Assembly: GCA_021323755.1 (NCBI GenBank)
Contig: JAJPKJ010000039.1
Location: forward strand, 1 to 34,821
Reading direction: 5' to 3'
DNA from: Chitinophagales bacterium
GTDB taxonomy: Bacteria; Bacteroidota; Bacteroidia; Chitinophagales; Chitinophagaceae
DNA: 34,821 nucleotides
Made by a program: the position numbers and the translations under genes. Of this stretch, positions 12,044 to 34,802 are shown piece after piece; the stretch's first letter is position 1, and each line of letters starts with the position of its first letter. Under the pieces are notes generated by a model. That model was not told the DNA's origin. It saw nothing but the letters and a program-made list of their open reading frames with translations, and searched no databases.

Positions 12044-13591
12044 TTACTCGGTTTTAAGGATTACCCAGGCGTCATTTTTATAATAAACCGGCAGTTTTGA
12101 TCTTAGCGTTTTCGACAGGTTTTGATAATAATCCTCCGAATGCAAAACGATATAGTTGATCGAATATTTATTGACATCGCTCATTAGTGAGGCATCATCC
12201 GGGTACGACGCGATCCCGCCATAGTTGTGCAGGTCGAATAAAAAAAGATGATTCCACAAATCTTCACTGTAAAATCCGGCAATATGACTGCCGGCAGGAA
12301 TATGCCGGACAATCTCTGTCGCTGAATCATAATCATCTTTATTAACATTTATCCGCGTTGCCAAATAAGTGATCGTTGTGTAAAAAAAGGGGATCATCAT
12401 GATCAGCACCATGATCATACGCGCTTTTTTAGTGATATTGCAAATCAAATAATAAACCAACTGAAACAAAAGCATGGTTGCCGTTATCAATAATATCCAG
12501 ATGTATCGCGGCTCGACGCTTATTAAAAAATAACCGGAAATATACAAAGCCACAAAAAAAATGATCTTATAAATCAAAGCGTTTTTAAGAAAGCGGACCG
12601 TGTTTTTATTCTTCCACACAAAAAATAAAACAAGCGGAACTAAAAAAAGTGAGAGCAAAAAATATTTTCCTAAAAACATCCCGACAAGTTTTTTACTGTT
12701 GATGAAAATGAGTTTCAGATAAGTGAAAATATCCTTATGGTACTTGGTATGCACCGTAGATTGTTTATAGATCAACGGCATATCCTCCCAACTAAAATAG
12801 GCTTCAGGATAGGGCAATTGCCGAAGCGTGTGTTGCGACTGGAAAGGATGATGAACGACGCCTTGCTCATCCAAAATGGAAAATACATAACCAGATGCTG
12901 TGGAAATGGTCCATTCTTTGTATTTTGAATGCAATGCCAAAATCCAGCAACCGCTCAACGCAAGAAAAATAAAAAGCGTCAGTAACGATCGTTGAAATTC
13001 TTTTTTTAAGCGTTTTTTTTGAAGCAATTTTTGAAGAAAGCAGGCGCTGATAAATACACCAAAAAAATAGAAAGAATATGCTTTTGTAAAATAGAGCAGA
13101 GCGCCTAGAACGCCAACGGTAAAGGGTTTTGAAAGGATATCACCCGACAAATAAATATCCAGCAGATACAAAAGCAGGCATAATGTGAGCAGGTCCGGAG
13201 TGATGGTATTAAAATGAAGAATTAATAATTCCAACGCACAACTAACAACAATGCATAACCGAAATAAATAGGGAATATCATTAAAAAATTTACTGACAAT
13301 AATATTGATCTTCTGCAATGCAACACAAGCAATGATGATGTTCAGCAATCGGAAAGCGACCAATTCAGGGAGACCAATCTTAAATAAAGGAGCAAGCAAC
13401 CAGCTTATTAGTGGAGACCAGCAACCGTTTACTGCAGCATTGAAATTCCCCTGCGCATAATAGCGGGCGATACGCAAATAACAAATGCCATCCGGATTGA
13501 TATGGTATTGAAAGAAAGGCAATAAAACAACTGAGAAGAATATAAAGGCGGCAAGTATTACGAAAAATTCTTTTGATGGCTTACTAAACAT
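12044..13591 (-). CDS. Polytopic membrane protein, probable GT-C-fold glycosyltransferase
   Basis: The protein has 515 residues with an N-terminal helix and roughly ten or more hydrophobic segments, then a soluble C-terminal domain of about 110 residues. After the first helix, the periplasmic loop reads HINPDGICYLRIARYYAQGNF. An acidic residue here (Asp34), followed by Tyr and an amphipathic segment, is the usual place of the catalytic Asp of GT-C enzymes (PMT/ArnT-like) that use lipid-linked sugars. The later segment SVEPRYIWILLITA is also common in such proteins. The C-terminal part (HIAGFYSEDLWNHLFLFDL, INYIVLHSEDYY) resembles the soluble domain of these families. Donor and acceptor are unknown. 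The start lies 10 nt after the stop of the upstream gene, so the two are likely cotranscribed. Confidence 0.6.
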   Translation of the reverse strand: MFSKPSKEFFVILAAFIFFSVVLLPFFQYHINPDGICYLRIARYYAQGNFNAAVNGCWSPLISWLLAPLFKIGLPELVAFRLLNIIIACVALQKINIIVSKFFNDIPYLFRLCIVVSCALELLILHFNTITPDLLTLCLLLYLLDIYLSGDILSKPFTVGVLGALLYFTKAYSFYFFGVFISACFLQKLLQKKRLKKEFQRSLLTLFIFLALSGCWILALHSKYKEWTISTASGYVFSILDEQGVVHHPFQSQHTLRQLPYPEAYFSWEDMPLIYKQSTVHTKYHKDIFTYLKLIFINSKKLVGMFLGKYFLLSLFLVPLVLFFVWKNKNTVRFLKNALIYKIIFFVALYISGYFLISVEPRYIWILLITATMLLFQLVYYLICNITKKARMIMVLIMMIPFFYTTITYLATRINVNKDDYDSATEIVRHIPAGSHIAGFYSEDLWNHLFLFDLHNYGGIASYPDDASLMSDVNKYSINYIVLHSEDYYQNLSKTLRSKLPVYYKNDAWVILKTE

Positions 13592-13601
13592 TTCCGTTGT
13601 T

Positions 13602-15149
13602 TCAATGATTGTATTTTTCTAAAAACTTTTCCCTGATCACATCCTGAACAGGCACGCCCTTTATTTTGCTTTCGAGCCAGGAAATAATATCGAGATAAGA
13701 AAATGCGCGTGTTGCAAATGGGTTTTTTTCAAGTTTTTTGAGTTTATCCAACAAGGCTTCAAATTCCGGTTTTAGCTGTTTTGGAGATAGGCGGAATGAA
13801 CGTCGTAAAAAGTTAAATATCTCTTCTTCAACAACGCCCAGGTTTTCCATTTTTGCCATAAAGCGATAAACAGATTTGATAAGATATTCGAGCAACTGGT
13901 AATTCTCCAACTCATAATGAGCGATCAAATGAAGCAACCGCGAATAACATTGCAGGTCCGTTCTCAGGTCAACTTTCCAGTTAATGATCTTATTCAGATA
14001 ATCGATCGTGGTTTCGTAATCTGCGCTCCCAAAATAGAGCGAAGCGAATTTGTAATAAAAAACGAATACGCGATGTCTGTCAATGAATAGCTGGTATTCA
14101 CCTAACTTTTGCAAAATCTCAGGAACGATTTGTTTCCCTTCAGTAAATGTCCCTTCAATAAAATGTCTATTAATGCGTGAGATGCTCAGGTAAATAAATG
14201 TTTGAATTAAATTGTTGTCATTCTGCAAAACAATTTTTGATTGTGAGAATTTTTCAAACTCCTGAAGCGTCTCTAAGAATTTTGTATAATTCTGTAGATC
14301 GAAATGTGCACCGAGCAAATTGTGCATGCCTTTTATATAATGCACGGTCTCGATTTCGATCATGAATTTTTCCTTCTCAAAAAGATCCACCCATTTTTGT
14401 GCATAGCGATAATACAATAAAAAATCCTGTCGTATAAAGGCATACCAGCAATAGCTTTGATACAAATACAATCTTTCATAAAATCCATTGCAGTGCTCGG
14501 TATTTGCAGGAATCCCTTCTTCAAAAAAATGCTGCACGGCATCTTCATCCGCCTTGTTTCTGGCATGCCCGTTCTTAATATACCAACTGTATAATTGCAA
14601 GGAAAGATTCGATAAATTGCCGATCAGCTGGAGCCGTTGATTGGTATTGTCAACTTCCGAAGTCAATTGCTCTGCCCGATCTTGCATGCTGCGGGTAATG
14701 TGAAGTGCTTCGATCTTTTTTTCAAAAAATAAGATCTGTAATAAAAAAGTAAGCTGATTATTTTCCTGCGCAATTGTTTTTATCTTATCCAGTGTTTTCA
14801 GGCTTTGCAGGTACAACCCTTTATTGTAGAGTATGCGCGCGAAATCCAGTTGTTCGTGTAGTTGAATGTCAATATTATCGTCATTCTTTATCAACCGAAG
14901 ACTTGATAATATTTCTCGGTACAAATGCGCTTTTATGTTCGATAATTGCTGCTTGGCAATCTTCTTATTTCGTTTCAACAAGATCACTTCGTCGTATGTG
15001 TCCATATTGTCCAAAGCATCAAACAATTGAATGATCTTTAGGTCTTCTGCAGCCGAATTTCTCGTTACATAAAGCTTGAAATTGCGCTTTTCTGACTTCT
15101 TAAGCGACTTAATCAATTGAAATAAAGTATCTGAAGATCGGTTGGGCAT
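13602..15149 (-). CDS. Helical-repeat (TPR-like) protein of unknown function
   Basis: I do not recognise a characterised family. The 515-residue protein is soluble, with no signal peptide or transmembrane helix. It begins with a conserved-looking segment SSDTLFQLIKSLKKSEKRNF followed by FKLYVTRNS. Most of the rest consists of paired amphipathic helices, such as FARILYNKGLYLQSLKTLDK and YFGSADYETTIDYLNKII, which look like degenerate TPR units. Charged coiled-coil-like stretches occur near residues 165-200. Scaffold or regulatory roles are typical of such proteins, but nothing specific is shown. The gene is divergent from leuA, with 155 nt between the start codons, and lies 10 nt ahead of the membrane glycosyltransferase-like gene. 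Confidence 0.7.
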   Translation of the reverse strand: MPNRSSDTLFQLIKSLKKSEKRNFKLYVTRNSAAEDLKIIQLFDALDNMDTYDEVILLKRNKKIAKQQLSNIKAHLYREILSSLRLIKNDDNIDIQLHEQLDFARILYNKGLYLQSLKTLDKIKTIAQENNQLTFLLQILFFEKKIEALHITRSMQDRAEQLTSEVDNTNQRLQLIGNLSNLSLQLYSWYIKNGHARNKADEDAVQHFFEEGIPANTEHCNGFYERLYLYQSYCWYAFIRQDFLLYYRYAQKWVDLFEKEKFMIEIETVHYIKGMHNLLGAHFDLQNYTKFLETLQEFEKFSQSKIVLQNDNNLIQTFIYLSISRINRHFIEGTFTEGKQIVPEILQKLGEYQLFIDRHRVFVFYYKFASLYFGSADYETTIDYLNKIINWKVDLRTDLQCYSRLLHLIAHYELENYQLLEYLIKSVYRFMAKMENLGVVEEEIFNFLRRSFRLSPKQLKPEFEALLDKLKKLEKNPFATRAFSYLDIISWLESKIKGVPVQDVIREKFLEKYNH

Positions 15150-17917: not shown

Positions 17918-18460
17918 ATGAGAAGAATTATTGTATCCCTTATCATTTTATCATTGGCCTTCACCGGCAAGGCACAAACTTTTACATTGAAGAGCAAAGA
18001 CATTGGCGGGCAAGCAACCGACAAGCAAGTGTATAATGGTTTTGGTTGCACCGGCGAAAATCTCTCTCCCGAATTGTATTGGGAAAATGTTCCCGCAGGA
18101 ACAAAAAGTTTTGCTGTCACCATGTATGATCCTGATGCGCCAACCGGAAGTGGTTTCTGGCATTGGGTGGTTTTTGATATCCCGGCAAACACGACCGAAT
18201 TAAAAACAGGTGCCGGAAATATTGCCAAAGGATTGATGCCTGCCAGTGCTATTCAAAGCAATACCGATTTTGGCCAGGCCGGCTATGGCGGGCCCTGCCC
18301 ACCACCGGGTCATGGTTTTCATGAATATCGCATCACCATATATGCTTTGAAAGTGGACAAACTCGGACTGGACAAGAACGCGACTCCGGCTTTTGTGGGT
18401 TTCAATCTTTTTTCAAACACCATCGAAAAAGCAACATTGGTAATGTATTATAAACGATAA
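17918..18460 (+). CDS. Secreted YbhB/YbcL-type phosphatidylethanolamine-binding-like (PEBP) protein
   Basis: The protein has 180 residues. Residues 1-20 form a signal peptide ([20 protein letters not shown]), so the mature protein should be exported to the periplasm. The PEBP fold is shown by [19 protein letters not shown] (from residue 71) and by [16 protein letters not shown] (122-137), which form the conserved anion-binding pocket. Bacterial YbhB/YbcL proteins have no settled function. The gene lies between leuC (27 nt upstream) and leuD (ATG 1 nt after its stop), so it is translated as part of the leucine operon. A direct role in leucine synthesis is unlikely because the product is exported. 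Confidence 0.9.
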
Positions 18461-20249: not shown

Positions 20250-20280
20250 TTTGTTTTTAAAAAGGCGGTTCGTATATTCG
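20250..20280 (+). promoter_or_regulatory. Predicted promoter of the ilv operon leader (TTTG-N19-TATATTCG)
   Basis: An exact -33 TTTG at 20250-20253 is followed by a T-tract. A -7 element TATATTCG lies at 20273-20280, with a spacing of exactly 19 nt. This differs from the Bacteroidota consensus at one base. Transcription should start near 20286, about 12 nt before the leader-peptide ATG. It is the best-spaced promoter in the window. Confidence 0.65.
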
Positions 20281-20298
20281 CATTACAACGTTTCTTTC

Positions 20299-20397
20299 AT
20301 GTTGAACAGCAGAATAAATAATGTTATTGGTCTTCTCACCGCAATTATTATTGTGGTTGTCATTATTATTCCTGCAACAACTGGAGGGGGCTGTTAA
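20299..20397 (+). CDS. Ile/Val-rich leader peptide of the ilv operon attenuator
   Basis: A 32-codon ORF starts with ATG at 20299 and stops at TAA 20395-20397. Residues 10-24 read IGLLTAIIIVVVIII, with nine consecutive Ile/Val codons (ATT, GTG, GTT and GTC) at codons 16-24. The peptide ends PATTGGGC. Such a run is the hallmark of leader peptides that sense charged tRNA(Ile) and tRNA(Val), like E. coli IlvL. It sits about 12 nt behind a predicted start site and 27 nt ahead of a perfect intrinsic terminator, with ilvE beyond that. The peptide probably has no function of its own. Its Gly codons GGA GGG GGC (20383-20391) double as the antiterminator strand. It is too short for usual gene callers. 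Confidence 0.85.
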   Translation: MLNSRINNVIGLLTAIIIVVVIIIPATTGGGC

Positions 20398-20438
20398 AGT
20401 ATAAACATAAAAATTAAAATACTAAAAAACCCGCCTCC
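20383..20438 (+). promoter_or_regulatory. Predicted antiterminator pairing of the ilv attenuator
   Basis: GGAGGGGG at 20383-20390, inside the leader ORF, can pair with CCCGCCTCC at 20430-20438, the left terminator arm and the start of its loop. It forms 8 Watson-Crick pairs with one bulged G (20433). A ribosome stalled in the Ile/Val run leaves this strand free; one reaching the stop codon covers it. The pairing is inferred by eye. Confidence 0.65.
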
Positions 20439-20456
20439 AAAAAGGCGGGTTTTTTT
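20424..20456 (+). terminator. Intrinsic terminator (attenuator) upstream of ilvE
   Basis: The arms AAAAAACCCGCC (20424-20435) and GGCGGGTTTTTT (20444-20455) are perfectly complementary, with an 8-nt loop TCCAAAAA and a run of seven T. It stands 34 nt before the ilvE ATG and after the leader peptide, so it is positioned to stop transcription before the structural genes and not to end the leu operon. Confidence 0.88.
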
Positions 20457-20490
20457 ATTATGGCAATGGAAAATTCAAATCATAAATAGT

Positions 20491-21390
20491 ATGGCAACTT
20501 ATTACAACGAAAACACGATTCTTTATTTGAACGGGGAATTTGTGAAAGCATCTGAAGCAAAAATTGATCTATATAGCCAATCGCTCCATTATGGTTATGC
20601 AGTGTTCGAAGGGATTCGGGCATACAAGACCCTTGCTGGCGAAACAAAGATCTTCAAGGAACTGGAGCATTTTGAAAGATTAAAGAGATCTGCCGAGGCG
20701 ATTAATATTTATTATCCCTATTCAACCGGAGAACTGATCGATGCTACGTACGAAGTGCTGAAAAGAAACAATTTACAGAACGCATATATAAGACCCTTGG
20801 TTTTCGCTCCCGCAAATATGAGTTTCACTCAGAATACGGAATCATTTATTGCCATTGAGGTTTGGGAGATGGGAAGATTTTTGGGTGATAAACTGATAAA
20901 AGTAATGAGCTCTCCTTTCGAACGCCCAAATCCAAAGGCTTTCAAAATAGAAGCAAAAGCAACCGGCCATTATGTGAATTCAATCGTGGCAAGCCAGGAT
21001 GCAAAAGCAAAAGGTTATGACGAAGCATTATTAAATGATATAAATGGTTTTGTGGCGGAAGCCCCCGGCGCCAACATGTTTTATGAAAAAGATGGAAAAT
21101 TATTTACCCCATCACTTGGAAATATTTTGCCGGGAATCACCAGAGCAACCGTAATAGAAATTTGTCATGAGCTCGATATTGCGGTTGAAGAAAGACTTTT
21201 CACCACTGAAGAAGTGAAGGAGCATGCAGATGCAGCATTTTTTTGCGGAACAGCGGCAGAAGTAATTGGATGGGAAAGTCTCGATGATATCAAGATGAAA
21301 AAAGATTGGAATGATACGGTGAGCAAAGTGATCCAGGATGCATATAAAGCAAGGGTGATTGAAAAAGAGTTTAAGCCAGAATTTGCATAA
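20491..21390 (+). CDS. ilvE: Branched-chain amino acid aminotransferase
   Basis: IlvE is the PLP enzyme that transfers the amino group of glutamate to the 2-keto acids of Ile, Val and Leu. The 299 residues are typical of fold-type IV aminotransferases. SLHYGYAVFEGIRAY (31-45) is the N-terminal signature. The PLP lysine is Lys156 in EAKATGHYVNS. The cofactor phosphate loop is in GNILPGITRATVIEI, and FFCGTAAEVIG (250-260) completes the active site. It is the first structural gene after the attenuator. The next gene, ilvD, begins 118 nt downstream; that gap holds no clear signal. Confidence 0.95.
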   Translation: MATYYNENTILYLNGEFVKASEAKIDLYSQSLHYGYAVFEGIRAYKTLAGETKIFKELEHFERLKRSAEAINIYYPYSTGELIDATYEVLKRNNLQNAYIRPLVFAPANMSFTQNTESFIAIEVWEMGRFLGDKLIKVMSSPFERPNPKAFKIEAKATGHYVNSIVASQDAKAKGYDEALLNDINGFVAEAPGANMFYEKDGKLFTPSLGNILPGITRATVIEICHELDIAVEERLFTTEEVKEHADAAFFCGTAAEVIGWESLDDIKMKKDWNDTVSKVIQDAYKARVIEKEFKPEFA

Positions 21391-21508: not shown

Positions 21509-23191
21509 ATGTCTGAACTGAACAAATATTCCAAAACATTAACGCAGGATGAAACCCAACCTGGCGCGCAGGCAATGCTTTATGCGATCGGTTTTAAAGA
21601 TGAAGATTTTAAAAAGGCACAGGTTGGCATTGCCAGCATGGGTTGGGATGGCAATCCCTGCAACATGCATCTCAATGACCTGGCAACCGTGGTGCGTGAC
21701 AGCGTAAACGCTGAAAACCTTATCGGACTCAGGTTTTATACAATCGGGGTAAGTGATGGCATGAGCATGGGAACAGATGGCATGCGCTATAGTTTAGTGA
21801 GCCGGGATTTGATTGCAGACAGTATTGAAACAAATGCCGGCGCACAATATTATGATGCACTGGTCGCCATTCCGGGTTGCGATAAAAATATGCCTGGCTC
21901 AATTATGGCAATGGGAAGATTGAATCGCCCCTCAATAATGTTATACGGTGGGACGATTGCGCCGGGACATTATAAAGGAGAAGATCTAAATATTGTGTCT
22001 GCATTTGAAGCGCTGGGAAACAAAATTGCCGGCAATTTAGATGAAGCCGATTTCAAAGGAATCGTACGTAATGCTTGTCCGGGAGCAGGCGCCTGCGGAG
22101 GCATGTACACGGCAAATACGATGGCGAGCGCTATTGAAGCTTTGGGAATGAGTTTGCCATATTCATCATCAAATCCTGCATTGAGCGGAGATAAACAAAA
22201 AGAGTGTCAAGCAATCGGTAAAGCAATAAGATTGTTATTAGAAAAAGATATAAAGCCCAAAGATATCATGACCAGAAAAGCATTTGAAAATGCAATTACG
22301 GTTGTGATGGTCCTTGGTGGGAGTACAAATGCAGTACTGCATCTTATCGCGATAGCAAAAAGTGTTGGAGTGAAATTAACCCAGGATGATTTTCAAACCA
22401 TCAGCAACAAAACGCCCGTACTGGCTGATTTTAAGCCAAGCGGAAAATATCTGATGGAAGATCTGCACCAATATGGCGGGGTACCTGCGGTAATGAAATA
22501 TTTATTGAGCAAGGGTTTTTTGCATGGCGACTGTTTGACGGTAACCGGAAAAACAGTTGCAGAAAACCTGCAGACAGCTCTAGATCTGGATTTTGAAAAA
22601 CAAGATGTCATTCATCCTTTCGAAGATCCAATTAAAGCAACAGGCCATCTCCAAATATTATATGGCAATCTTGCAACAGGTGGAAGTGTTGCAAAAATTT
22701 CCGGTAAAGAAGGAAATCGTTTTGAAGGAACTGCCAGAGTATTTGACGGCGAACACGATTTGATAAAAGGAATTCAAAGTAAAAGAGTGCATGCTGGCGA
22801 TGTGGTGGTAATAAGAAATATCGGCCCGAAAGGCGCACCGGGAATGCCTGAAATGCTGAAACCAACCGGAGCTATTATTGGTGCCGGTTTGGGCAAATCC
22901 GTTGCTTTGATCACAGACGGAAGATTCAGCGGCGGCACACATGGTTTTGTGGTGGGTCATATCACTCCCGAAGCACACGATGGAGGTTTATTAGGCATTG
23001 TAAAAGATGATGACATTATTGAAATTGATGCGCTGAAAAATACCATCAATTTAAAAATAAGTGAAGAAGAAATTGCAAAACGTAAAGCAGCATGGAAACA
23101 ACCTGCATTAAAGGCTACAAACGGCATTTTGTATAAATATGCAAAGTATGTGAAGAACGCAGCGGAAGGATGTGTGACAGATGAAGAGTAG
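21509..23191 (+). CDS. ilvD: Dihydroxy-acid dehydratase
   Basis: IlvD dehydrates 2,3-dihydroxyisovalerate and 2,3-dihydroxy-3-methylvalerate to the 2-keto acids of Val and Ile. It is an iron-sulfur enzyme with 560 residues, normal length. The cluster cysteines are Cys51 (GNPCNMH), Cys124 (PGCDKNMPG) and Cys196 ([14 protein letters not shown]). Three Cys in this arrangement suggest a [2Fe-2S] type, as in plant and many bacterial enzymes, but this is inferred. [15 protein letters not shown] near residue 471 is the conserved C-terminal active-site segment. ilvB follows after 72 nt on the same strand. Confidence 0.96.
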
Positions 23192-23263: not shown

Positions 23264-25000
23264 ATGAGCACACTCGAATTGACCGCAGAAAAAGTTTCTG
23301 CAAAAAAAACAGAGAACATAAGTGGCAGCGAAGCAGTTCTGAAGGCCCTGATTGCTGAAAATGTCGAGACTATTTTCGGTTATCCTGGCGGGGCGATCAT
23401 GCCGATCTACGATGCTTTGTATGATTATCAGGATAGATTACAACATATTTTAGTTCGGCACGAACAAGGCGCAATTCATGCTGCACAAGGCTTTGCCCGT
23501 ACTTCGGGTAAAACAGGCGTCGTCTTCGCTACAAGTGGGCCGGGTGCAACAAACCTGGTTACCGGTCTTGCGGACGCAATGATTGACAGCACACCTGTTG
23601 TTTGTGTTACCGGGCAAGTATTCGCTCATTTATTAGGTACCGATGCATTTCAGGAAACCGATGTTATCAATATCACGACCCCGGTGACAAAATGGAATTA
23701 CCAGGTCACTGATGCAAATGAGATTCCGGCCGTTCTTGCAAAAGCATTTTATATCGCAAAGAGTGGCAGACCCGGACCGGTCCTGATTGATATTACCAAA
23801 AATGCGCAACTGCAAAAATTCGATTACAGTGGATATACACCCTGTACGCATATACGTAGTTACCGCCCCAAGCCCATTGTCAGAAAAAAATATGTGGAAC
23901 AAGCTGCAGCATTGATTAATGCTGCTGAAAAACCCTTTGTGATTTTCGGACAAGGAGTTATTCTGGGAAAAGCAGAAAAAGAATTTAAAAAGTTTATTGA
24001 AAAATCAGGTATTCCCGCTGCCTGGACAATTCTGGGCATGAGTGCCATTCCAACAGATCATCCCCTTGCTGTGGGCATGTTGGGAATGCATGGAAATTAC
24101 GGACCAAATGTTTTGACCAATGAATGTGATGTGCTGATCGCAATTGGTATGCGTTTCGATGATCGCGTTACGGGAAGACTTGATAAGTATGCAAAGCAGG
24201 CGAAAGTGATTCATCTTGATATCGATCCGGCAGAAATTGACAAGAATGTAAAAGCAACGGTATCGGTTTGGGGCGATTGCAAAGAAACTTTACCCCTGCT
24301 CACGGAATCGATTGAGAAAAAAACCTATCCGCAGTGGTTAGAACGCTTTAAAGAATTTCAAAAAGAAGAAGAAGAAACCTGCATCATCCCCGAATTAAAT
24401 CCAACAAGCGATGTGCTCACCATGGGCGAAGTAATAAAATTATTGAACGAGCTGACAAAAGGGGAAGCAGTGATCGTAACGGATGTTGGTCAACATCAAA
24501 TGGTCGCTTGCCGCTATGCAAAATACAACCAGTCAAGAAGCAATGTTACGAGCGGAGGACTGGGGACGATGGGGTTTGCATTACCCGCGGCAATCGGTGC
24601 AAAGTTTGGCGCAGCAGACCGGGTGGTCGTCGCCATTATCGGAGATGGCGGTTTTCAAATGACACTGCAGGAACTGGGAACGATAATGCAAAGCAATGTG
24701 GATGTTAAGATCATTATTCTTAATAATAATTTCCTCGGTATGGTTCGCCAGTGGCAGCAGTTATTTCATGAAAAAAGATATTCTTTTGTTGACATCACCA
24801 GTCCTGATTTTGTGACTGTAGCAAAAGGTTACCACATCGAAGGACAAAAAGTTTCAAAAAGAGAAGATCTCATGAATGCATTGTCAACCATGCTCAATCA
24901 TAAAGGTGCGTTCTTGCTGGAAGTGATGGTGGGGAAAGAAAATAATGTGTTTCCGATGGTACCGCAAGGCTGCAGTGTGGCAGAAATAAGATTGAAATAG
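23264..25000 (+). CDS. ilvB: Acetolactate synthase (AHAS) large subunit
   Basis: This thiamine-diphosphate enzyme makes 2-acetolactate (to Val and Leu) or 2-aceto-2-hydroxybutyrate (to Ile). It has 578 residues. The catalytic Glu67 is in VRHEQGAIHAAQGFAR. The TPP/Mg motif begins with GDGGFQ (460-465) and ends in LNNN near 487-489. GPGATN and the FAD-site region GMLGMHG (271-277) are also present. ilvN, its regulatory subunit, is not adjacent: a methyltransferase gene lies between. A 123-nt stretch with a small hairpin (25043-25056) follows the stop. Confidence 0.95.
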   Translation: MSTLELTAEKVSAKKTENISGSEAVLKALIAENVETIFGYPGGAIMPIYDALYDYQDRLQHILVRHEQGAIHAAQGFARTSGKTGVVFATSGPGATNLVTGLADAMIDSTPVVCVTGQVFAHLLGTDAFQETDVINITTPVTKWNYQVTDANEIPAVLAKAFYIAKSGRPGPVLIDITKNAQLQKFDYSGYTPCTHIRSYRPKPIVRKKYVEQAAALINAAEKPFVIFGQGVILGKAEKEFKKFIEKSGIPAAWTILGMSAIPTDHPLAVGMLGMHGNYGPNVLTNECDVLIAIGMRFDDRVTGRLDKYAKQAKVIHLDIDPAEIDKNVKATVSVWGDCKETLPLLTESIEKKTYPQWLERFKEFQKEEEETCIIPELNPTSDVLTMGEVIKLLNELTKGEAVIVTDVGQHQMVACRYAKYNQSRSNVTSGGLGTMGFALPAAIGAKFGAADRVVVAIIGDGGFQMTLQELGTIMQSNVDVKIIILNNNFLGMVRQWQQLFHEKRYSFVDITSPDFVTVAKGYHIEGQKVSKREDLMNALSTMLNHKGAFLLEVMVGKENNVFPMVPQGCSVAEIRLK

Positions 25001-25123: not shown

Positions 25124-25900
25124 TTGAACACGACAACAGAAAATACAAAATGGAACGCAAGTCTTTATGATGACAAACATTCCTTTGTTTTTAAATATGG
25201 TGAAGACCTTGTGCATTTACTGAATCCAAAACCAGGGGAGCGAATCCTCGATCTGGGTTGCGGGACCGGTTATCTCACTAATATTATTGCAGAGTCCGGA
25301 GCAAAAGTGATCGGCATAGACAATTCAGCGGATATGATCGCCAAAGCAAAAAGCGAATATCCAAAAATCGATTTTGAAAAATTTTCAGCTACTGATTTTC
25401 ATTTTGATTCAAAATTCGATGCCATCTTTTCTAACGCCGTACTGCACTGGGTTTTGGAGAAAGAAAAAGCGATTGATTGCATGTATGAAAATTTGAAAAC
25501 AAATGGAAGACTGGTAATTGAAATGGGCGGCAAAAATAATGTGCAAAGCATCATGAATGCAATTCAAAAATATGCGTCAAAATATTTGCCGGAAAGTGCC
25601 TCATCTTTTAAGATTTGGTATTATCCGTCACTCAGCGAGTACACTTCACTGTTAGAAGCAAGGGGTTTTCGGGTCACCTACGCTACCCATTATGACAGGG
25701 AAACGGAATTAAAAGACCCTGCGAACGGAATAAAAGACTGGATAAAAATGTTCGGCAGTTCTTTCTTAAAAAACATGGATGAATCTGTCGCCGATAAAAT
25801 GCTCTCGGAAATTCAGGAATCATTAAGACCTACAAATTTCAGAAATGAAAAATGGTATGCCGATTATAAAAGATTAAGAGTTGTAGCCATTAAACAATAA
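25124..25900 (+). CDS. Class I SAM-dependent methyltransferase
   Basis: The 258-residue protein has the Rossmann-type methyltransferase core. Motif I is ILDLGCGTGYLTNIIAESGAKVIGID (from about residue 41), with the acidic residue Asp at the end of strand 2. DAIFSNAVLHWVLEKEKAIDC is the motif IV region. Its N-terminus, WNASLYDDKHSFVFKYGEDLV, is common in trans-aconitate methyltransferase-like proteins of Bacteroidota. The substrate is unknown. The start codon is TTG (25124): no in-frame ATG precedes the conserved region. It lies between ilvB and ilvN and only 4 nt before the ilvN ATG, so it is almost certainly in the operon. Confidence 0.85.
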   Translation: MNTTTENTKWNASLYDDKHSFVFKYGEDLVHLLNPKPGERILDLGCGTGYLTNIIAESGAKVIGIDNSADMIAKAKSEYPKIDFEKFSATDFHFDSKFDAIFSNAVLHWVLEKEKAIDCMYENLKTNGRLVIEMGGKNNVQSIMNAIQKYASKYLPESASSFKIWYYPSLSEYTSLLEARGFRVTYATHYDRETELKDPANGIKDWIKMFGSSFLKNMDESVADKMLSEIQESLRPTNFRNEKWYADYKRLRVVAIKQ

Positions 25901-25904
25901 TATT

Positions 25905-26492
25905 ATGAAACCAGAATTCACCATAACCGTTTACACAGAAAACCAGATAGGTTTGCTGAATCGTATTGCTATTATTTTTTCCAGACGAAAGATCAATATC
26001 GAAAGTCTAAATACATCTCCTTCTGAGATCGACAGCGTTCATCGCTTCACCATTGTTATCAATGAGACCGAAGACGTAGTAAGAAAACTTTGCCGGCAAA
26101 TTGAAAAACAGGTTGATGTATTAAAAGCATATTTTAATAATAATGATGAAATCATTTGGCAGGAACTGGCATTGTATAAAGTGCCGACAGATGTTATCGC
26201 TGAAAAAGTTAAAGTCGAACGTTTACTTCGCGAATATGGCGCCCGTGCAGTTGCCATTCGCAAAGATTATATTGTTTTTGAGACCTCAGGTCACCGCGAA
26301 GAAATTGAAGCATTGATAAAAGCCCTCGAACCTTATGGTCTGATTGAATTTGTGCGCAGCGCGAGAGTTGCCATTATCAAAGACAGCATGGGCTTTCATG
26401 AAAAACTAAAAGAATTTGAATCAGAAGAGCCCGGGGCAAATGTTATCGAAAATGAATTTTTAGATAAGCAGGATGAGGTATTCTCCATGTAA
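25905..26492 (+). CDS. ilvN: Acetolactate synthase regulatory (small) subunit
   Basis: The small subunit activates the large subunit and confers feedback inhibition by valine in well-studied AHAS enzymes. This one has 195 residues. An N-terminal ACT domain at about 4-75 reads FTITVYTENQIGLLNRIAII, with the conserved Gly-Leu-Leu turn, and ISRIA-like helix features. The C-terminal domain contains LLREYGARAVAIRKDYIVFETSGHREEI (about 104-131), as in IlvH. It is longer than E. coli IlvN and close to IlvH-type subunits. It starts 4 nt after the methyltransferase stop and is followed after 10 nt by the VOC-family gene. ilvN and ilvH are used interchangeably for this family. Confidence 0.92.
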   Translation: MKPEFTITVYTENQIGLLNRIAIIFSRRKINIESLNTSPSEIDSVHRFTIVINETEDVVRKLCRQIEKQVDVLKAYFNNNDEIIWQELALYKVPTDVIAEKVKVERLLREYGARAVAIRKDYIVFETSGHREEIEALIKALEPYGLIEFVRSARVAIIKDSMGFHEKLKEFESEEPGANVIENEFLDKQDEVFSM

Positions 26493-26502
26493 AAAAAATT
26501 TT

Positions 26503-26880
26503 ATGATCGTTGAAAAAGTCATACCTACATTGCGCATTTTTGATTACAACAAAGCAATTGAATTTTATATCGATTGGCTTGGATTTAAGATCGTTTGGGA
26601 AGCCAGATTTGAAGAGAATGCGCCGATATATATGGAAATTGAAAAAGATGGAATCACCTTTCATTTGAGCGAACATCACGGAGATGGTACACCAGGAAGT
26701 CATGTTTTTATTTGGTGCAAAGGGGTTGAGGAATACCACAGAGAACTGATCGCAAAAAAATATAAGTACAACAGACCGGGACTGGAAAAAACATTTTACG
26801 GAGCACTGGCATTTACAGCCAATGACCCGTTCAATAATAAAATAATTTTCAATGAAAAAATTCCCGAAGCAGACAATTAA
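26503..26880 (+). CDS. VOC/glyoxalase-superfamily protein (bleomycin-resistance-like fold)
   Basis: The ATG at 26503 gives 125 residues starting MIVEKVIPTLRIFDYNKAIEFY. An upstream in-frame ATG at 26473 would overlap ilvN and adds unrelated residues. The pattern of an N-terminal strand, DYNKAIEFYIDWLGFKIVWE, then ITFHLSEHHGDGTPGSHVFIW and a C-terminal half with a repeated fold, is the two-module VOC arrangement. FYGALAFTANDPFNNKIIFNE ends it. Members include glyoxalase I-like enzymes and antibiotic-sequestering proteins; the metal-ligand pattern is too partial to call an activity. It sits 10 nt after ilvN and 71 nt before ilvC, so it is a passenger in the operon. Confidence 0.82.
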   Translation: MIVEKVIPTLRIFDYNKAIEFYIDWLGFKIVWEARFEENAPIYMEIEKDGITFHLSEHHGDGTPGSHVFIWCKGVEEYHRELIAKKYKYNRPGLEKTFYGALAFTANDPFNNKIIFNEKIPEADN

Positions 26881-26951: not shown

Positions 26952-28001
26952 ATGGCAAAATTAAATTTCGGCGGCGTAGAAGAAAATGTAATCACCCGCG
27001 AAGAGTTCCCACTAAGCAAAGCACAGGAAGTTTTAAAAAATGAAACCATTGCAGTAATTGGATATGGCGTGCAGGGTCCCGGACAGGCACTCAATCAAAA
27101 AGATAATGGTATAAATGTCATTGTGGGCCAACGCAAAAGTTCAAAGACATGGGATAAAGCCGTTCGTGATGGTTTTGTCCCCGGAGAAACACTTTTTGAA
27201 ATTGAGGAAGCTTTGAAACGCGGAACGATCATTTGCTATTTACTGAGCGACGCTGCACAAATTGCGTTGTGGCCAACAGTTCAAAAATATTTAACACCCG
27301 GTAAAGCGTTATATTTTTCACATGGCTTCGGGATCACATTCAATCATCAAACACATATCATTCCACCCAAAGATGTGGATGTATTTTTAGTCGCACCAAA
27401 AGGAAGCGGCACATCATTGCGCAGAATGTTTTTGCAAGGACGCGGATTGAATAGTTCATATGCCATTTTTCAGGACGCAACCGGAAAGGCTAAAGAAAGA
27501 GTGACCGCACTTGGCATCGCAGTTGGAAGCGGATATTTATTTGAAACAGATTTCAAAAAAGAAGTGTACAGCGATCTCACCGGCGAACGCGGAACATTAA
27601 TGGGTGCGATACAGGGAATTTTCGCGGCGCAATATGAAGTGTTGCGCAAGAAGGGACATTCCCCAAGCGAGGCATTTAACGAGACTGTTGAGGAATTGAC
27701 TCAATCATTGATGCCGCTCGTTGCTGAGAACGGGATGGATTGGATGTACGCCAATTGCAGCACCACGGCACAACGTGGCGCATTGGACTGGTGGAAAAAA
27801 TTTCGTGACGCTACGCTACCGGTGTTCACTGAACTATATGAAAGCGTTGCTGCCGGAAAAGAATCACAGCGTTCGATCGATTCCAACTCACAACCGGATT
27901 ACCGTGAAAAATTAGAAGTTGAATTGAAAGAACTGCGTGATAGCGAAATGTGGCAGGCAGGAAAAACAGTGAGAAGTTTAAGACCGGAAAATCAGAAATA
28001 A
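26952..28001 (+). CDS. ilvC: Ketol-acid reductoisomerase, Bacteroidota-type
   Basis: IlvC isomerises and reduces acetolactate and acetohydroxybutyrate with Mg2+ and NAD(P)H. It has 349 residues, near the length of class I enzymes. The dinucleotide motif GYGVQGPGQA (37-46) replaces the more usual GYGSQGHA. The metal-binding residues are Asp208 and Glu212 in YSDLTGERGTLMG, and Glu244/Glu248 in FNETVEELTQSL. The beta2-alphaB loop reads GQRKSSKTW (from about 59), whose Arg/Lys/Ser favour NADPH. The position of the gene after ilvN fits the order of the pathway. Confidence 0.93.
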   Translation: MAKLNFGGVEENVITREEFPLSKAQEVLKNETIAVIGYGVQGPGQALNQKDNGINVIVGQRKSSKTWDKAVRDGFVPGETLFEIEEALKRGTIICYLLSDAAQIALWPTVQKYLTPGKALYFSHGFGITFNHQTHIIPPKDVDVFLVAPKGSGTSLRRMFLQGRGLNSSYAIFQDATGKAKERVTALGIAVGSGYLFETDFKKEVYSDLTGERGTLMGAIQGIFAAQYEVLRKKGHSPSEAFNETVEELTQSLMPLVAENGMDWMYANCSTTAQRGALDWWKKFRDATLPVFTELYESVAAGKESQRSIDSNSQPDYREKLEVELKELRDSEMWQAGKTVRSLRPENQK

Positions 28002-28716: not shown

Positions 28717-29973
28717 ATGAACGTAAAAGAAAAAACAACATATCAGTTGGATTTTGCAAAAGCAAAAGAAAGATTGAGTAAAGTAGTTATCAAATCGCCG
28801 CTACAACTAAACAGAAGCTTATCGGCTAAGTATAACGCCAATGTTTATTTGAAAAGGGAGGATTTGCAAGTGGTTCGGTCATACAAATTGCGCGGAGCAT
28901 ATAACATGATGAGTAGTTTGTCGGAAGAAAAACTGAGAAATGGGGTTACTACTGCAAGTGCCGGCAATCACGCGCAGGGATTTGCTTATTCTTGCAAGAA
29001 ACTTGGAGTGAAAGGTGTTGTGTTCATGCCCGTTATTACGCCAAATCAAAAAGTTAACCAAACGAAAATGTTCGGTGAAGATAATATCGAGATAAAACTG
29101 GTTGGCGATACTTTCGATGATTGCGCTGTGGCAGCAAAAAAATTTACGGAAGAAAATGGAATGACTTTTATACCGCCATTTGATGACTATCGCATCATCG
29201 AAGGGCAGGGAACTGTTGCTGTTGAAATATTGGAGCAATTATCCGATGTCGATTATGTGTTCGTACCTGTCGGTGGTGGCGGACTTGCTGCCGGCGTGGG
29301 CACCTATTTCAAAACATATTCCCCCAAAACAAAGATTATCGGGCTGGAACCAGAAGGCGCACCCTCTATGTATGAAGCGCTAAAAATCGGTCACCCGGTA
29401 ACCTTGGATACAATTGAGCGGTTTGTTGACGGCGCTTCGGTAAAACGAACCGGCGATATCACTTTTTCCATTTGCAAAGAAGTGTTGGATGATCTGCATC
29501 TTGTACCGGAAGGGAAAATTTGTTCGACGATTTTGAAATTATATAATGAAGATGCGATCGTTGTTGAACCTGCAGGAGCAATGTCAATTGCCTGTCTGGA
29601 TGATTATGCAAATGAAATAAAAGGTAAAAATATTGTGTGTATCGTGAGCGGAAGCAATAATGATATTGACAGAATGCAGGAAATAAAAGAACGCTCGCTG
29701 CAATATGAAGGATTAAAACATTATTTTTTGATTCGCTTTGCACAGAGACCCGGCGCATTGAAAGAATTTGTGAACCATGTGCTGGGTGCAAACGATGATA
29801 TTACCCGGTTTGAATATATGCAGAAACATAATAAAGAAACCGGACCCGCGCTTGTCGGGATTGAATTGAAATCGAAAGAAGATTACCATGCATTGATGCA
29901 GAACCTAAAGAAGTTCAATATTAATTTTACAGAATTGAAAAAGGATGACAACATGTTTGGCTACGTGGTGTAA
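28717..29973 (+). CDS. ilvA: Threonine dehydratase (deaminase) with one ACT-like domain
   Basis: IlvA deaminates threonine to 2-oxobutanoate, the entry to isoleucine. The 418 residues include a catalytic fold-type II PLP domain. The PLP lysine is Lys57 in RSYKLRGAY, SAGNHAQG is at 81-88, and the phosphate-binding GGGGLAAG is at 186-193. From about residue 333 onward, YFLIRFAQRPGALKEFVNHV begins a single ACT-like regulatory domain. E. coli IlvA has two such domains; Bacillus-like forms have one. Isoleucine feedback is therefore likely but not shown. It starts 13 nt after the preceding gene and is the last gene of the ilv cluster. Confidence 0.94.
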   Translation: MNVKEKTTYQLDFAKAKERLSKVVIKSPLQLNRSLSAKYNANVYLKREDLQVVRSYKLRGAYNMMSSLSEEKLRNGVTTASAGNHAQGFAYSCKKLGVKGVVFMPVITPNQKVNQTKMFGEDNIEIKLVGDTFDDCAVAAKKFTEENGMTFIPPFDDYRIIEGQGTVAVEILEQLSDVDYVFVPVGGGGLAAGVGTYFKTYSPKTKIIGLEPEGAPSMYEALKIGHPVTLDTIERFVDGASVKRTGDITFSICKEVLDDLHLVPEGKICSTILKLYNEDAIVVEPAGAMSIACLDDYANEIKGKNIVCIVSGSNNDIDRMQEIKERSLQYEGLKHYFLIRFAQRPGALKEFVNHVLGANDDITRFEYMQKHNKETGPALVGIELKSKEDYHALMQNLKKFNINFTELKKDDNMFGYVV

Positions 29974-30290: not shown

Positions 30291-33200
30291 ATGAGTGAAT
30301 TAGGCTTATATTCTCCGGAATTCGAGCGTGATGCCTGTGGTATCGGCTTTGTTGCTAACATCAAAAGCAACAAATCGCACCAGATCGTTTCTGATGCGCT
30401 CACGATTTTGGAGAACATGGAACATCGCGGTGCATGTGGTTGTGAAAATAATACCGGCGACGGTGCAGGCATAATGATTCAAACACCGCACGAATTCTTC
30501 TTTGATGAATGTGTGAAGCTGGGAATTCATTTGCCTTCTTATGGAAAGTATGGAGTGGGCATGATTTTTTTCCCCAGAGATATCCGGTTGAAAGAAGAAT
30601 GTCGTGACATTTTTAACAGATCAACGGAGAAATTAGGATTGGAAATCCTGGGCTATCGCAAAGTGCCGGTCAATCCAGATGGAATCGGACCAACCGCATT
30701 ATCTGTTGAGCCTGAAATTGAACAGGTCTTCATTGCATGTCCGGATCACATCAATAATCCGGAAAATTTTGAACGCAAACTCTTTGTGCTGCGCAATTAT
30801 TCAACTCATCTCATCAACAGCACGGTAAAAAAAGACGCGATCGGTTTTTATTTCGCCTCCCTCTCTTACAAAACAGTGGTGTATAAAGGACAGCTGACGA
30901 GCATGCAGGTCCGTAATTATTTTCCAGACCTGAGTAATAAGCGCGTTGTTTCCGCATTCGGTTTGATACATTCTCGTTTTGCAACAAATACTTTTCCTTC
31001 CTGGAAATTGGCGCAGCCATTTCGCTACATCGCACACAATGGAGAGATCAATACACTCCAGGGAAATCTGAATTGGCTCCGTACAAGCGAAAAGGGTTTC
31101 ACATCTCCCTATTTCACTGATGAAGAGATGGAAATGCTATTGCCGATCGTAACTGAGGGACAATCGGATTCTGCCTGTCTGGATAATATGATCGAGCTGC
31201 TCACCTTATGCGGAAGAAGTTTACCACATGTGATGATGATGCTCATCCCCGAAGCATGGGATGGCAATGAGCAGATGGATCCGGTAAAAAAGGCATTCTA
31301 TGAATTTCATGCAGCATTCATGGAGCCCTGGGACGGACCTGCTTCTATTTCCTTTACGGATGGAAAAATAATCGGGGCTACGCTTGACAGAAATGGTTTG
31401 CGTCCCTCACGGTATTGCGTAACCGAAGATGACAGAGTGATCATGGCATCAGAAACAGGTGTGCTTCCCGTCGATCCGAAATTGATAAAAGAAAAAGGAA
31501 GATTACAACCAGGGAAAATGTTCATCGTTGACCTGGAACAGGGAAGAATCATCAGCGATGATGAACTGAAAAAAGATATCTGTTCTCAAAAGCCATATGA
31601 AGAATGGCTGAATAAATATAAAATCCGCCTGGAAGAACTGCCCGAACCCCGCGTCATGTTCACGCATCTTGAGCACGACCAGATATTCAAATATCAGAAA
31701 GCATTTGGATACTCTACAGAAGATCTGGAAACGATCATTGCACCAATGGCTTTGGATGCAAAAGAACCTGTAGGCTCGATGGGTAGTGATGTTCCGCTTG
31801 CGGTACTCAGCGATCAACCACAACATCTCAGCAGTTATTTCAAACAATTATTTGCGCAGGTCACCAATCCGCCCATTGATCCGATACGCGAAAGACTGGT
31901 AATGTCTTTGTCAACTTTCGCCGGCAATAATGGAAATCTGCTGGTTGAAGATTCGCTCGCGTGCCACAGTATCGCCTTGAAACATCCCGTGCTTGGCAAT
32001 CATGAATTGGAAAAGATAAGAAGTATAGATACCGGAATTTTCCAGGCAAAAACCCTGCAGACATATTTTCGCGCAGATGGACAAAAGGGTTCACTGCAAA
32101 AAGGGCTGGACAGACTTTGTCGGTATGCTGTTGATGCGGTTGAAGATGGATTTGAGGTCCTGATACTGACCGACCGCGCCATTGACAGCGACCACGCTCC
32201 TATTCCTTCATTGCTCGCAACTGCAGCCGTTCATCACCATCTTATTCGCAAAGGCTATCGCGGTCAGGTAGGCATTATTGTTGAAGCCGGCGATATCTGG
32301 GAAGTACATCATTTTGCCTGTCTCATTGGCTTTGGGGCAACAGCGATCAATCCATATCTCTCCTTGTCTACTATCCGCGACATGAAGTTGAGCGGGAAAT
32401 TAGAAACAGAATTGGATGTGGAATATCTAAAAAAGAATTACATCAAAGCCGTCAATGATGGATTGCTTAAAGTCTTTTCGAAGATGGGAATTTCCACGCT
32501 GCAATCTTACCAGGGGGCGCAGATATTTGAGATCATCGGTTTGAATAAATCGGTAGTCGATAAATATTTTACCGGCGCCACCTCACGTATAGAAGGAATG
32601 GGTTTGGATGAAATTGCCAAAGAAACCCTGGCAAAACATTTTTATGCTTTTAGCAAAAAAGATATTCCTGTTGATCGATTAAGTGTCGGTGGTATTTACC
32701 AATGGAGGCGCAAAGGGGAATTTCATTTATTCAATCCGCAAACCATTCACTTGTTGCAATATTCAACAAGAATGAATGATTACAATACTTTCAAAAAATA
32801 TTCAAAACTTATCAATGAGCAGGGAGAAAAAGCGGCGACATTAAGAAGTCTTTTCACATTTAAGCACTTGCGGAATTCGATTTCAATTGATGAAGTTGAG
32901 CCAGCTGAAAATATCTACAAACGTTTTGCTACTGGTGCTATGAGTTTTGGTTCGATTTCGCATGAAGCACATTCAACATTAGCCATTGCCATGAATCGCC
33001 TCGGTGGAAAAAGCAATACCGGCGAAGGCGGTGAAGATGAAATGCGTTACGAAAAACTGGCGAACGGAGATTCAATGAACTCTGCGATCAAACAAGTTGC
33101 CTCGGCACGCTTTGGTGTTACGAGTTATTATCTGACCATGGCAAAAGAGTTGCAAATTAAAATGGCGCAAGGCGCCAAACCCGGTGAGGGCGGGCAATTG

Positions 33201-34802
33201 CCAGGACATAAAGTTGATGATTGGATTGGTAGAGTTCGTCATGCAACTCCGGGTGTAGGTTTGATTTCTCCCCCACCCCATCACGATATTTATTCCATTG
33301 AAGATCTGGCACAATTGATATTTGATTTGAAGAATTCAAATCGCGATGCCCGCATAAGTGTGAAGCTAGTTTCAAAAGCGGGTGTTGGCACAATCGCCGC
33401 AGGCGTTGCCAAAGCAAAATCAGATGTGATATTGATCTCCGGTTTTGATGGCGGCACAGGCGCCTCCCCGATCAGTTCCATCAAACATGCCGGCTTACCT
33501 TGGGAATTGGGTCTTGCAGAATCTCATCAAACACTCGTAAAAAATAAATTACGAAGCAGAGTTGTTCTGCAAACTGACGGGCAATTAAAGACCGGTCGCG
33601 ATATTGCCATTGCAACATTATTAGGCGCAGAAGAATGGGGTGTTGCAACAGCCGCATTGGTAACGGAAGGTTGCATCATGATGCGCAAATGTCATTTGAA
33701 CACTTGCCCGGTTGGCGTTGCAACGCAAGATCCTGAATTAAGGAAAAGATTTACCGGGAATCCAGATCACGTCGTGAATCTCTTCAAATTCCTTACACAA
33801 GAATTGCGTGAAATAATGGCTGAGCTTGGTTTTCGTACGATTGAAGAAATGGTCGGACAAGTAGATTGTTTGGACATGAGAGAGGATATTGATCATTGGA
33901 AATACAGCAAACTTGATCTTACCCCTATTTTATACAAAGAACCAACATCATTATATACTGGCTTATACAAACAGGAAGAACAAGATCACGGACTAGCAGA
34001 TGTGCTTGACTGGAAATTACTGGTGGCTGCAAAACCCGCACTTGAACATCAGCAAAAAGTCTTCGCAGCATTCAATGTAAAAAATACAGACAGGACCATC
34101 GGCGCAATTTTATCAAACGAGATTTCAAAAAAATATAAATCGAACGGACTGCCGGAAGACACGATTCATTTTAAATTAACCGGGACAGCCGGACAAAGTT
34201 TTGCAGCGTTCAATACAAAAGGGGTTACCCTTGAGCTTGAAGGTGATGCCAACGATTATTTTGGAAAAGGACTATCAGGGGCAAGATTGATCATTTATCC
34301 TTCGCAGGATGCCGGATTCGTGCCTGAAGAAAATATCATCATTGGTAATGTGGCATTTTATGGTGCAACAAGCGGTGAGGCGTTTATAAGGGGAAAAGCG
34401 GGCGAGCGTTTTTGTGTGCGTAACTCCGGCGCAAAGGCAGTGGTGGAAGGCGTCGGCGATCACGGCTGCGAATACATGACCGGCGGAAGAGTGGTGATTC
34501 TGGGTGATACGGGAAGAAATTTTGCGGCGGGAATGAGTGGCGGAATTGCCTATGTATATGATGTCAATGCGCAATTTGCCGCATTATGCAATAAAGAGAT
34601 GGTTGACCTCGACGCTGTTGATGAAGAAGATGGACTGGAGCTGAAAGACATGATACAAAGGCATTATGCTTATACGGGCAGCACGGTCGCAAAATTTGTG
34701 TTGGATGATTTTGAGAATCAATTAAAGAATTTTGTGAAAGTATTTCCAAGAGATTATAAAAAAGTCTTGTTACAGAAAAAGGTCAGCGTGAAAACGAATT
34801 AA
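30291..34802 (+). CDS. gltB: Glutamate synthase large (alpha) subunit
   Basis: GltB hydrolyses glutamine and uses the ammonia, with 2-oxoglutarate, to form glutamate; the GltD subunit supplies electrons from NAD(P)H. The protein has 1503 residues, typical. The N-terminal glutaminase domain starts after a 15-residue propeptide with the catalytic Cys16 ([10 protein letters not shown]). The central domain begins near residue 480 ([18 protein letters not shown]). The FMN-binding synthase domain includes [10 protein letters not shown] and [16 protein letters not shown]. The [3Fe-4S] cysteines are Cys1128, Cys1134 and Cys1139 in [15 protein letters not shown]. The C-terminal beta-helix domain, rich in Gly, completes it. 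The stop is 19 nt before the window edge; gltD is expected next. It could supply the amino donor for ilvE. Confidence 0.97.

Follow-up and report, generated by a model that had tools for sequence, protein, structure and literature searches.

Results

Genes flanking the leader

The window, that is, the whole stretch of 34,821 nucleotides that was analysed, comes from a Chitinophagaceae genome of 4.08 Mb in 75 contigs. Profile searches confirmed on its plus strand the six ilv identities that an earlier note, made from the letters alone, had assigned: ilvE, the branched-chain aminotransferase gene and the first that would be under control (20491–21390), ilvD (21509–23191), ilvB (23264–25000), ilvN (25905–26492), ilvC (26952–28001) and ilvA, which encodes threonine dehydratase with a C-terminal regulatory domain (28717–29973). 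A methyltransferase gene (25124–25900) lies between ilvB and ilvN, a glyoxalase-family gene (26473–26880), whose frame overlaps that of ilvN, lies between ilvN and ilvC, and a gene without a Pfam match separates ilvC from the threonine dehydratase gene. The large subunit of glutamate synthase is encoded 3' of the ilv genes (30291–34802). On the 5' side of the leader the gene order is leuA, leuC, a YbhB-like gene, leuD and leuB, the third of these being a YbhB/YbcL Raf-kinase-inhibitor-like gene at 17918–18460, and leuB ends at 20182, 241 nt 5' of the hairpin described below. Two adjoining ORFs of 515 aa each are found on the minus strand (12044–13591 and 13602–15149); the former had no Pfam match at 1e-5.

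Anatomy of the ilv leader

The stretch from 20250 to 20490, immediately before ilvE, carries a compact series of elements. The promoter proposed in the earlier note, TTTG (20250–20253) followed after 19 nt by TATATTCG (20273–20280), was read directly and is promoter-like; we take the two boxes to be of the -33 and -7 types, an assignment that presumes the consensus of Bacteroidota promoters. The mechanical scan, whose models do not cover Bacteroidota promoters, listed no E. coli-type promoter on the plus strand. Both boxes are kept in relatives: at all 25 loci the second ends 16–22 nt 5' of the start codon of the leader, and a CTTTG/CTTTT box stands 19–20 nt 5' of this second box in 24 of the 25 (16 nt in L021). 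With a start site near 20286, the 5' untranslated region of the leader would be only about 10–15 nt long. Within it, a pyrimidine tract directly before the start codon (20291–20298) is a weakly predicted pairing partner and a possible segment 1.

The leader ORF itself, MLNSRINNVIGLLTAIIIVVVIIIPATTGGGC, occupies 20299–20397, with ATG at 20299, 32 codons and TAA at 20395–20397. Its codons 16–24 (20344–20370) read IIIVVVIII, exactly as the earlier note had stated. As in a leader peptide, this run of codons for end products of the pathway precedes ilvE, ilvD, ilvB, ilvN, ilvC and ilvA. No other Ile/Val run of at least seven residues occurs in any of the window's six frames; among 200 dinucleotide-shuffled versions of the window there were five runs of at least seven and none of at least nine. 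A small hairpin, ACCGCAAT-TATT-ATTGTGGT, at 20338–20357, at the start of the Ile/Val codons, is predicted in many relatives as well, and is a possible pause hairpin.

A four-codon spacer, PATT (20371–20382), leads from the sensing codons to GGAGG (20383–20387), the core of segment 2 (TGGAGGGGG, 20382–20390), which forms the 5' strand of the antiterminator within the last leader codons. Its partner CCTCC (20434–20438) lies in the 5' arm and loop of the terminator, within segment 3 (CCCGCCTCCA, 20430–20439), which is common to both structures. An inner antiterminator helix is formed by AGTAT (20398–20402) and ATACT (20419–20423). The intrinsic terminator (20424–20456) is identified by sequence and folding only and sits between the leader and the first gene; its stem (20424–20436/20443–20455) has 13 pairs and a loop of 6, with a folding energy of -18.8 kcal/mol, and its T7 tract (20450–20456) ends 34 nt before the ilvE ATG at 20491, so that the stem-loop, T run and distance claimed beforehand all stand. 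The mechanical scan listed the same hairpin on the minus strand only, and its failure to list the terminator on the plus strand was probably caused by counting the T tract into the stem.

Occurrence in relatives

A search for ilvE covered 58 genomes, including the source genome, and gave a match in 57, many of them paralogues. Thirty-five of the genomes searched belong to the same family; a close ilvE was found in 25 (the source and 24 others, 65–85% identical), and the other ten gave distant ilvE matches only. An Ile/Val-rich leader, the hairpin and the promoter boxes were present at the ilvE loci of all these 25 genomes, also at L016, where the Ile/Val run is interrupted by an Arg. The check that the earlier note had proposed, whether ORF and terminator are kept in relatives, was thus passed throughout these loci, and the N-terminal half of the peptide varies, as does the length of the Ile/Val run. 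Only the start residue and two Gly residues are invariant in a 24-row peptide alignment. Such conservation we regard as the strongest evidence against a chance origin of the leader element. It was absent from the five loci of other families (L027–L031) among the 30 fetched, where the ilvE homologues are 30–52% identical and where the upstream DNA of L027 and L028 was just 118 and 146 nt long.

At E <= 0.01 a profile built from 24 leaders found matches in 36 of the 298 genomes searched in the order. Of these, 35 are genomes of the same family and represent 20 genera, and two of their matches are weak (E about 0.003). The match in another family was discounted, since it sits inside a 1039-aa frame. 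At least 20 same-family genomes had no match to the leader profile; among them G058 has ilvD and G068 gave no ilvD match. The best 30 of the 36 matches were made into loci and read, and a pooled set of 54 loci was formed, from which L035, L037, L038, L039, L041, L044 and L046 (7 of 36 read) were omitted as repeats and in which L032, L033, L034 and L036 are near-copies. L010, which contains Ns, was omitted from the peptide alignment, the small-hairpin prediction and the synonymous-resample test. Across the pooled loci the leaders are 30–38 codons long.

A phylum-wide regular-expression search for an Ile/Val leader within 700 nt of ilvD returned one of 29 loci, and that one was unconvincing; the sensitivity of this search is poor, since G081, with its leader (L047) at another place, also escaped it. 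No Rfam family matched the window at its gathering score. A permissive threshold gave 75 sub-threshold matches on 401 bases, the best being AbsR25 at 39.9 of 47 bits, and these were taken as chance or as likeness to terminators.

Mutually exclusive pairing

At every one of the first 25 loci, pairing is possible between the last part of the leader and the 5' arm and loop of the terminator. In the window the antiterminator comprises TGGAGG/CCTCCA, GGG/CCC and the inner helix AGTAT/ATACT, and since segment 3 is shared, the GGAGG:CCTCC pairing and the terminator are mutually exclusive. This antiterminator was absent from the earlier note; its Ile/Val attenuator reading is supported by the present results and is sharpened by it. 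The inner helices of relatives differ, for example GGTA/TACC where the leader ends in Trp, and 53 of the 54 loci have GGAGG and 53 have CCTCC, whose final two bases fall within the terminator loop. The base 5' of GGAGG and the loop base 3' of CCTCC vary partly in concert: they form G-C in 11, T-A in 6 and no pair in 8 of 25 loci.

Alignment cells of the antiterminator are paired in 90.3% of cases (0/500 shuffles as high; 43–67% in slid versions), with a covariation score of 0.096 against 0.064 when shuffled (0/500). Both partners have changed in only one of its ten pairs, and in two inner columns 12 and 3 rows, respectively, have no pair. For the terminator, in whose alignment three rows are misaligned by one column, 92.4% of cells are paired, 4 of 11 pairs are changed on both sides, the covariation score is 0.214 against 0.144 (0/500), and the outer stem pairs covary. 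When partners were swapped between loci, own-partner pairing was matched by none of 20,000 permutations over the 54 loci, by none of 20,000 over 24 loci of other genera (a subset without L032, L033, L034, L036 and L040) and by 2 of 20,000 over the first 25 loci (291 and 449 within its two groups), with the reservation that the shuffle and swap tests leave shared ancestry in. The inner helix alone gave 134 of 20,000 over the 25 loci and 573 where the leader does not end in Trp; the Trp-ending group showed no swap signal (7,294/20,000). Folding the alignment of the whole region with RNAalifold gave a weak consensus (-6.6 kcal/mol), in which the structures were mixed and which was left unused.

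A three-way constraint can explain a near-invariant GGAGG/CCTCC beside varying pairs: these words would be fixed because CCTCC overlaps the bases that pair with both segment 2 and segment 4. We also considered that GGAGG might serve as a Shine-Dalgarno sequence at the stop codon of the leader, and rejected this because its distance to that codon varies.

Spacing and a ribosome model

Between the last codon of the Ile/Val run and GGAGG, 12 nt were counted by script in 51 of the 54 loci. The exceptions are L056 and L059, with 9 nt, and L064, with 3 nt by script and 12 nt by eye, its spacer PVIS including VI. The distance from the stop codon to the terminator arm varies from 21 to 35 nt across the same loci.

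We placed a model ribosome, assumed to cover the RNA as far as 12 nt past the first A-site base, at A-site codons 8–33 of the window leader. With codons 16–24 in the A site, all five GGAGG:CCTCC pairs remain intact (-15.9 kcal/mol). From codon 25 they are gone; a shifted pairing of -11.5 kcal/mol takes their place at 25, and the loss proceeds stepwise to -7.6 kcal/mol at codon 26 and -0.7 kcal/mol from 27. In the model, a ribosome stalled on the sensing codons exposes segment 2 and a terminating ribosome covers it. The terminator (-18.8 kcal/mol) outcompetes the antiterminator (-15.9 kcal/mol) at equilibrium at every position from codon 8 to codon 33, and the switch must therefore be kinetic.

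The naked RNA (20287–20456) folds with the terminator formed and its 5' end paired to segment 2. Such pairing of segments 1 and 2 is predicted in 23 of 25 loci (mean probability of at least 0.5 with the first 25 nt), and summed over the 25 loci it was equalled by 0 of 300 shuffled untranslated regions and by 3 of 20,000 swaps. In the window itself it was no better than shuffled (146/300 as good), and the 1:2 pairing is, as a folding prediction, unproven. The leader ORFs taken together fold slightly better than synonymous resamples (3/200), whereas the window's own does not (175/200).

Other amino acid leaders in the genome and family

The same genome carries MKFNLHIHHHHTCPTR before hisG, a His leader peptide (L077), MKQIQINIQWWWHTNLIRGL before trpE, a Trp leader peptide (L090), and a leader ending SSTITTTTTL before thrA (L147, contig C62). 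His-run leaders were found by regular expression at 12 of 16 hisG loci, the own locus being read separately, WWW leaders at 13 of the 14 trpE loci read (L084–L097, of 21), and Thr/Ile-rich leaders at all eight thrA loci, own included. No leader was found within 350 nt of leuA in 12 of 12 relatives by regular expression, and none is evident before leuA in the window.

In 12 of 13 trp loci the spacing from WWW to the start of CGGGGC, a word able to pair with the arm of the terminator, is 15 nt; the thirteenth differs at this point. At the his loci the RNA freed by a stalled ribosome folds into a helix over the terminator 5' arm in seven of eight, the eighth, L081, giving the terminator. His leader peptides with alternative hairpins were seen across L071–L083, the own hisG locus among them, and the predicted folds of some relatives (L074 and L076) pair the His codons themselves with a GGTGATG farther downstream. 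Phylum-wide, judged from the letters alone, short ORFs with a His run precede hisG at 12 of the 29 loci scanned (L185–L213, from 38 matches), several of them followed by a terminator-like hairpin.

The thrA leaders (L147 and L148–L154) end inside a hairpin with the stop codon at its centre. The hairpin reads CACAACCCGTTAAGGGTTGTC in several relatives and differently in others. It has no U tract, and 3' of it comes a conserved stretch around TTTCCATAT; control at these loci may work differently, through translation, Rho or a pause.

Discussion

We consider it highly probable that the element before ilvE is a ribosome-mediated transcription attenuator of ilvE-ilvD-ilvB-ilvN-ilvC-ilvA. The computations support its parts, their conservation, the exclusive pairing, the spacing and the covariation; from these we infer the transcript ends, the stalling, and the direction and size of the response. 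Because an antiterminator exists, the element is a switch and not a terminator only, and its role, as predicted from the sequence, is very probably to turn the pathway on when isoleucine or valine runs short.

In the proposed scheme, RNA polymerase would start just 5' of the leader ORF. With ample charged Ile-tRNA and Val-tRNA, the ribosome would reach the stop codon and cover segment 2 (GGAGG), leaving segment 3 (CCCGCCUCC) to pair with segment 4 (GGCGGG), and transcription would end at the U tract before ilvE. When Ile- or Val-tRNA is scarce, the ribosome would stall while its A site holds an Ile or Val codon; segment 2 would then lie just beyond its leading edge and pair with segment 3 once that is made, and this pairing, in place before segment 4 is made, would keep the terminator from forming. 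The four-codon spacer would act as a ruler by which segment 2 is still just exposed when the last sensing codon is in the A site.

Other readings of the same features have to be weighed against attenuation. The hairpin could be a mere terminator of the upstream leu genes, with the short ORF incidental, and both its place 241 nt after the end of leuB at 20182 and its minus-strand terminator-like score, as expected of a two-way terminator, would suit that role. A plain terminator, however, has no need of promoter boxes, a start codon, an Ile/Val run, a 12-nt spacing and an antiterminator, which are kept together in 25 of 25 loci, and we hold this reading to be very improbable. Hardly credible, and slightly less so than the last, is the proposal that the ORF encodes a functional small membrane peptide to which the RNA structure is secondary; the Ile/Val stretch is indeed hydrophobic and the peptides can be aligned, yet the N-terminus and the run length vary, nothing beyond the start residue and two Gly is invariant in the 24 rows, and the Gly codons are accounted for by pairing with CCTCC.

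What the leader acts on is a separate matter. It has been proposed that leader genes near structural genes aid reinitiation (PMC4833913), and the thrA leader hairpin of the same family, which has no U tract, would fit an action through translation of ilvE, reinitiation or Rho in place of the intrinsic terminator. In the ilv leader, however, T7 follows the stem, and CCGCCT lies 33 to 164 nt from the ilvE match in the 25 loci, a spread too wide for reinitiation, which makes such an action highly unlikely at this locus. Alternative structures alone do not reveal what chooses between them, and a metabolite, a tRNA (as in a T-box) or a protein might bind the leader RNA and select one; but no Rfam family reaches its gathering score, and conservation tracks the codons and a ribosome-sized spacing, so that a ligand of this kind is scarcely to be expected. 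A translating ribosome that senses Ile and Val codons and so governs an intrinsic terminator is the reading that we retain.

The findings document leader-peptide attenuation, with evidence of the covariation type, in a phylum where, in the literature searched, it has hardly been described. The scheme would require transcription and translation to be closely coupled in these bacteria, and the near-invariant spacing offers a direct genetic test of this. A leader ORF of this kind could easily be missed by annotation. Together with the other leaders, the ilv element would provide a rule, at the level of operons, for how the family controls its synthesis of branched-chain amino acids, histidine, tryptophan and threonine. 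A wider reading, which we put forward as a rather doubtful speculation, is that the family has a full attenuator set of its own (ilv, his, trp and thr), that the ilv helix is built from the Shine-Dalgarno and anti-Shine-Dalgarno words GGAGG and CCTCC, and that the fixed 12-nt ruler records the leading edge of the ribosome. As part of this speculation, those words would be freely usable because these ribosomes ignore Shine-Dalgarno pairing; the ribosomes of these bacteria are reported not to recognise Shine-Dalgarno sequences (PMC9976891).

Comparison with known systems

Ribosome-mediated attenuation is classical in E. coli, where the leaders of ilvGMEDA and ilvBN encode peptides rich in branched-chain residues and fold into a mutually exclusive antiterminator and terminator. 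The leader described here resembles them in its type, its exclusive structures and the enzymes concerned, and differs in its very short predicted 5' untranslated region, in a run made up of Ile and Val only, and in a single compact antiterminator built by the last leader codons. It belongs to the same function class as the Rfam families Thr_leader, Phe_leader, Leu_leader and Trp_leader, with scores that all fall below gathering (36.6/55, 33.8/55, 27.4/50 and 23.9/41 bits, respectively). The broad survey of Lopatovskaya et al. in 2010 may include Bacteroidota cases.

Attenuation has been shown or proposed for the uORF of Corynebacterium ilvBNC (the ilvB-II motif) and for the ilvB-OMG and ilvB motifs (PMC10272879). 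These resemble the present leader in having a uORF with branched-chain codons 5' of ilv genes, and differ from it in structures and hosts; the section on ilv motifs names Leptospira and "various bacterial phyla" as hosts, and Bacteroidota are not named in that section (PMC10272879). A gamma-proteobacterial origin of attenuator motifs was suggested in a passage of a 2013 survey (PMC3766115), and the earlier note was right in calling such attenuation best described in Proteobacteria. A hint from Bacteroidota already exists: the 2021 transcriptome of Flavobacterium psychrophilum, of the same phylum, gave strong clues for leader-peptide attenuation, likewise before amino acid biosynthesis operons, in a passage that names no operon and gives no detail of mechanism, the main text containing no word that starts with ilv (PMC9723704). 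Short ORFs reminiscent of leader peptides are also mentioned for the B. thetaiotaomicron transcriptome (PMC7366714). Among the matches listed in the literature searched, none described an ilv attenuator in Chitinophagaceae. The class of mechanism is already known, and the ilv leader is a new instance of it with an unusually clean anatomy.
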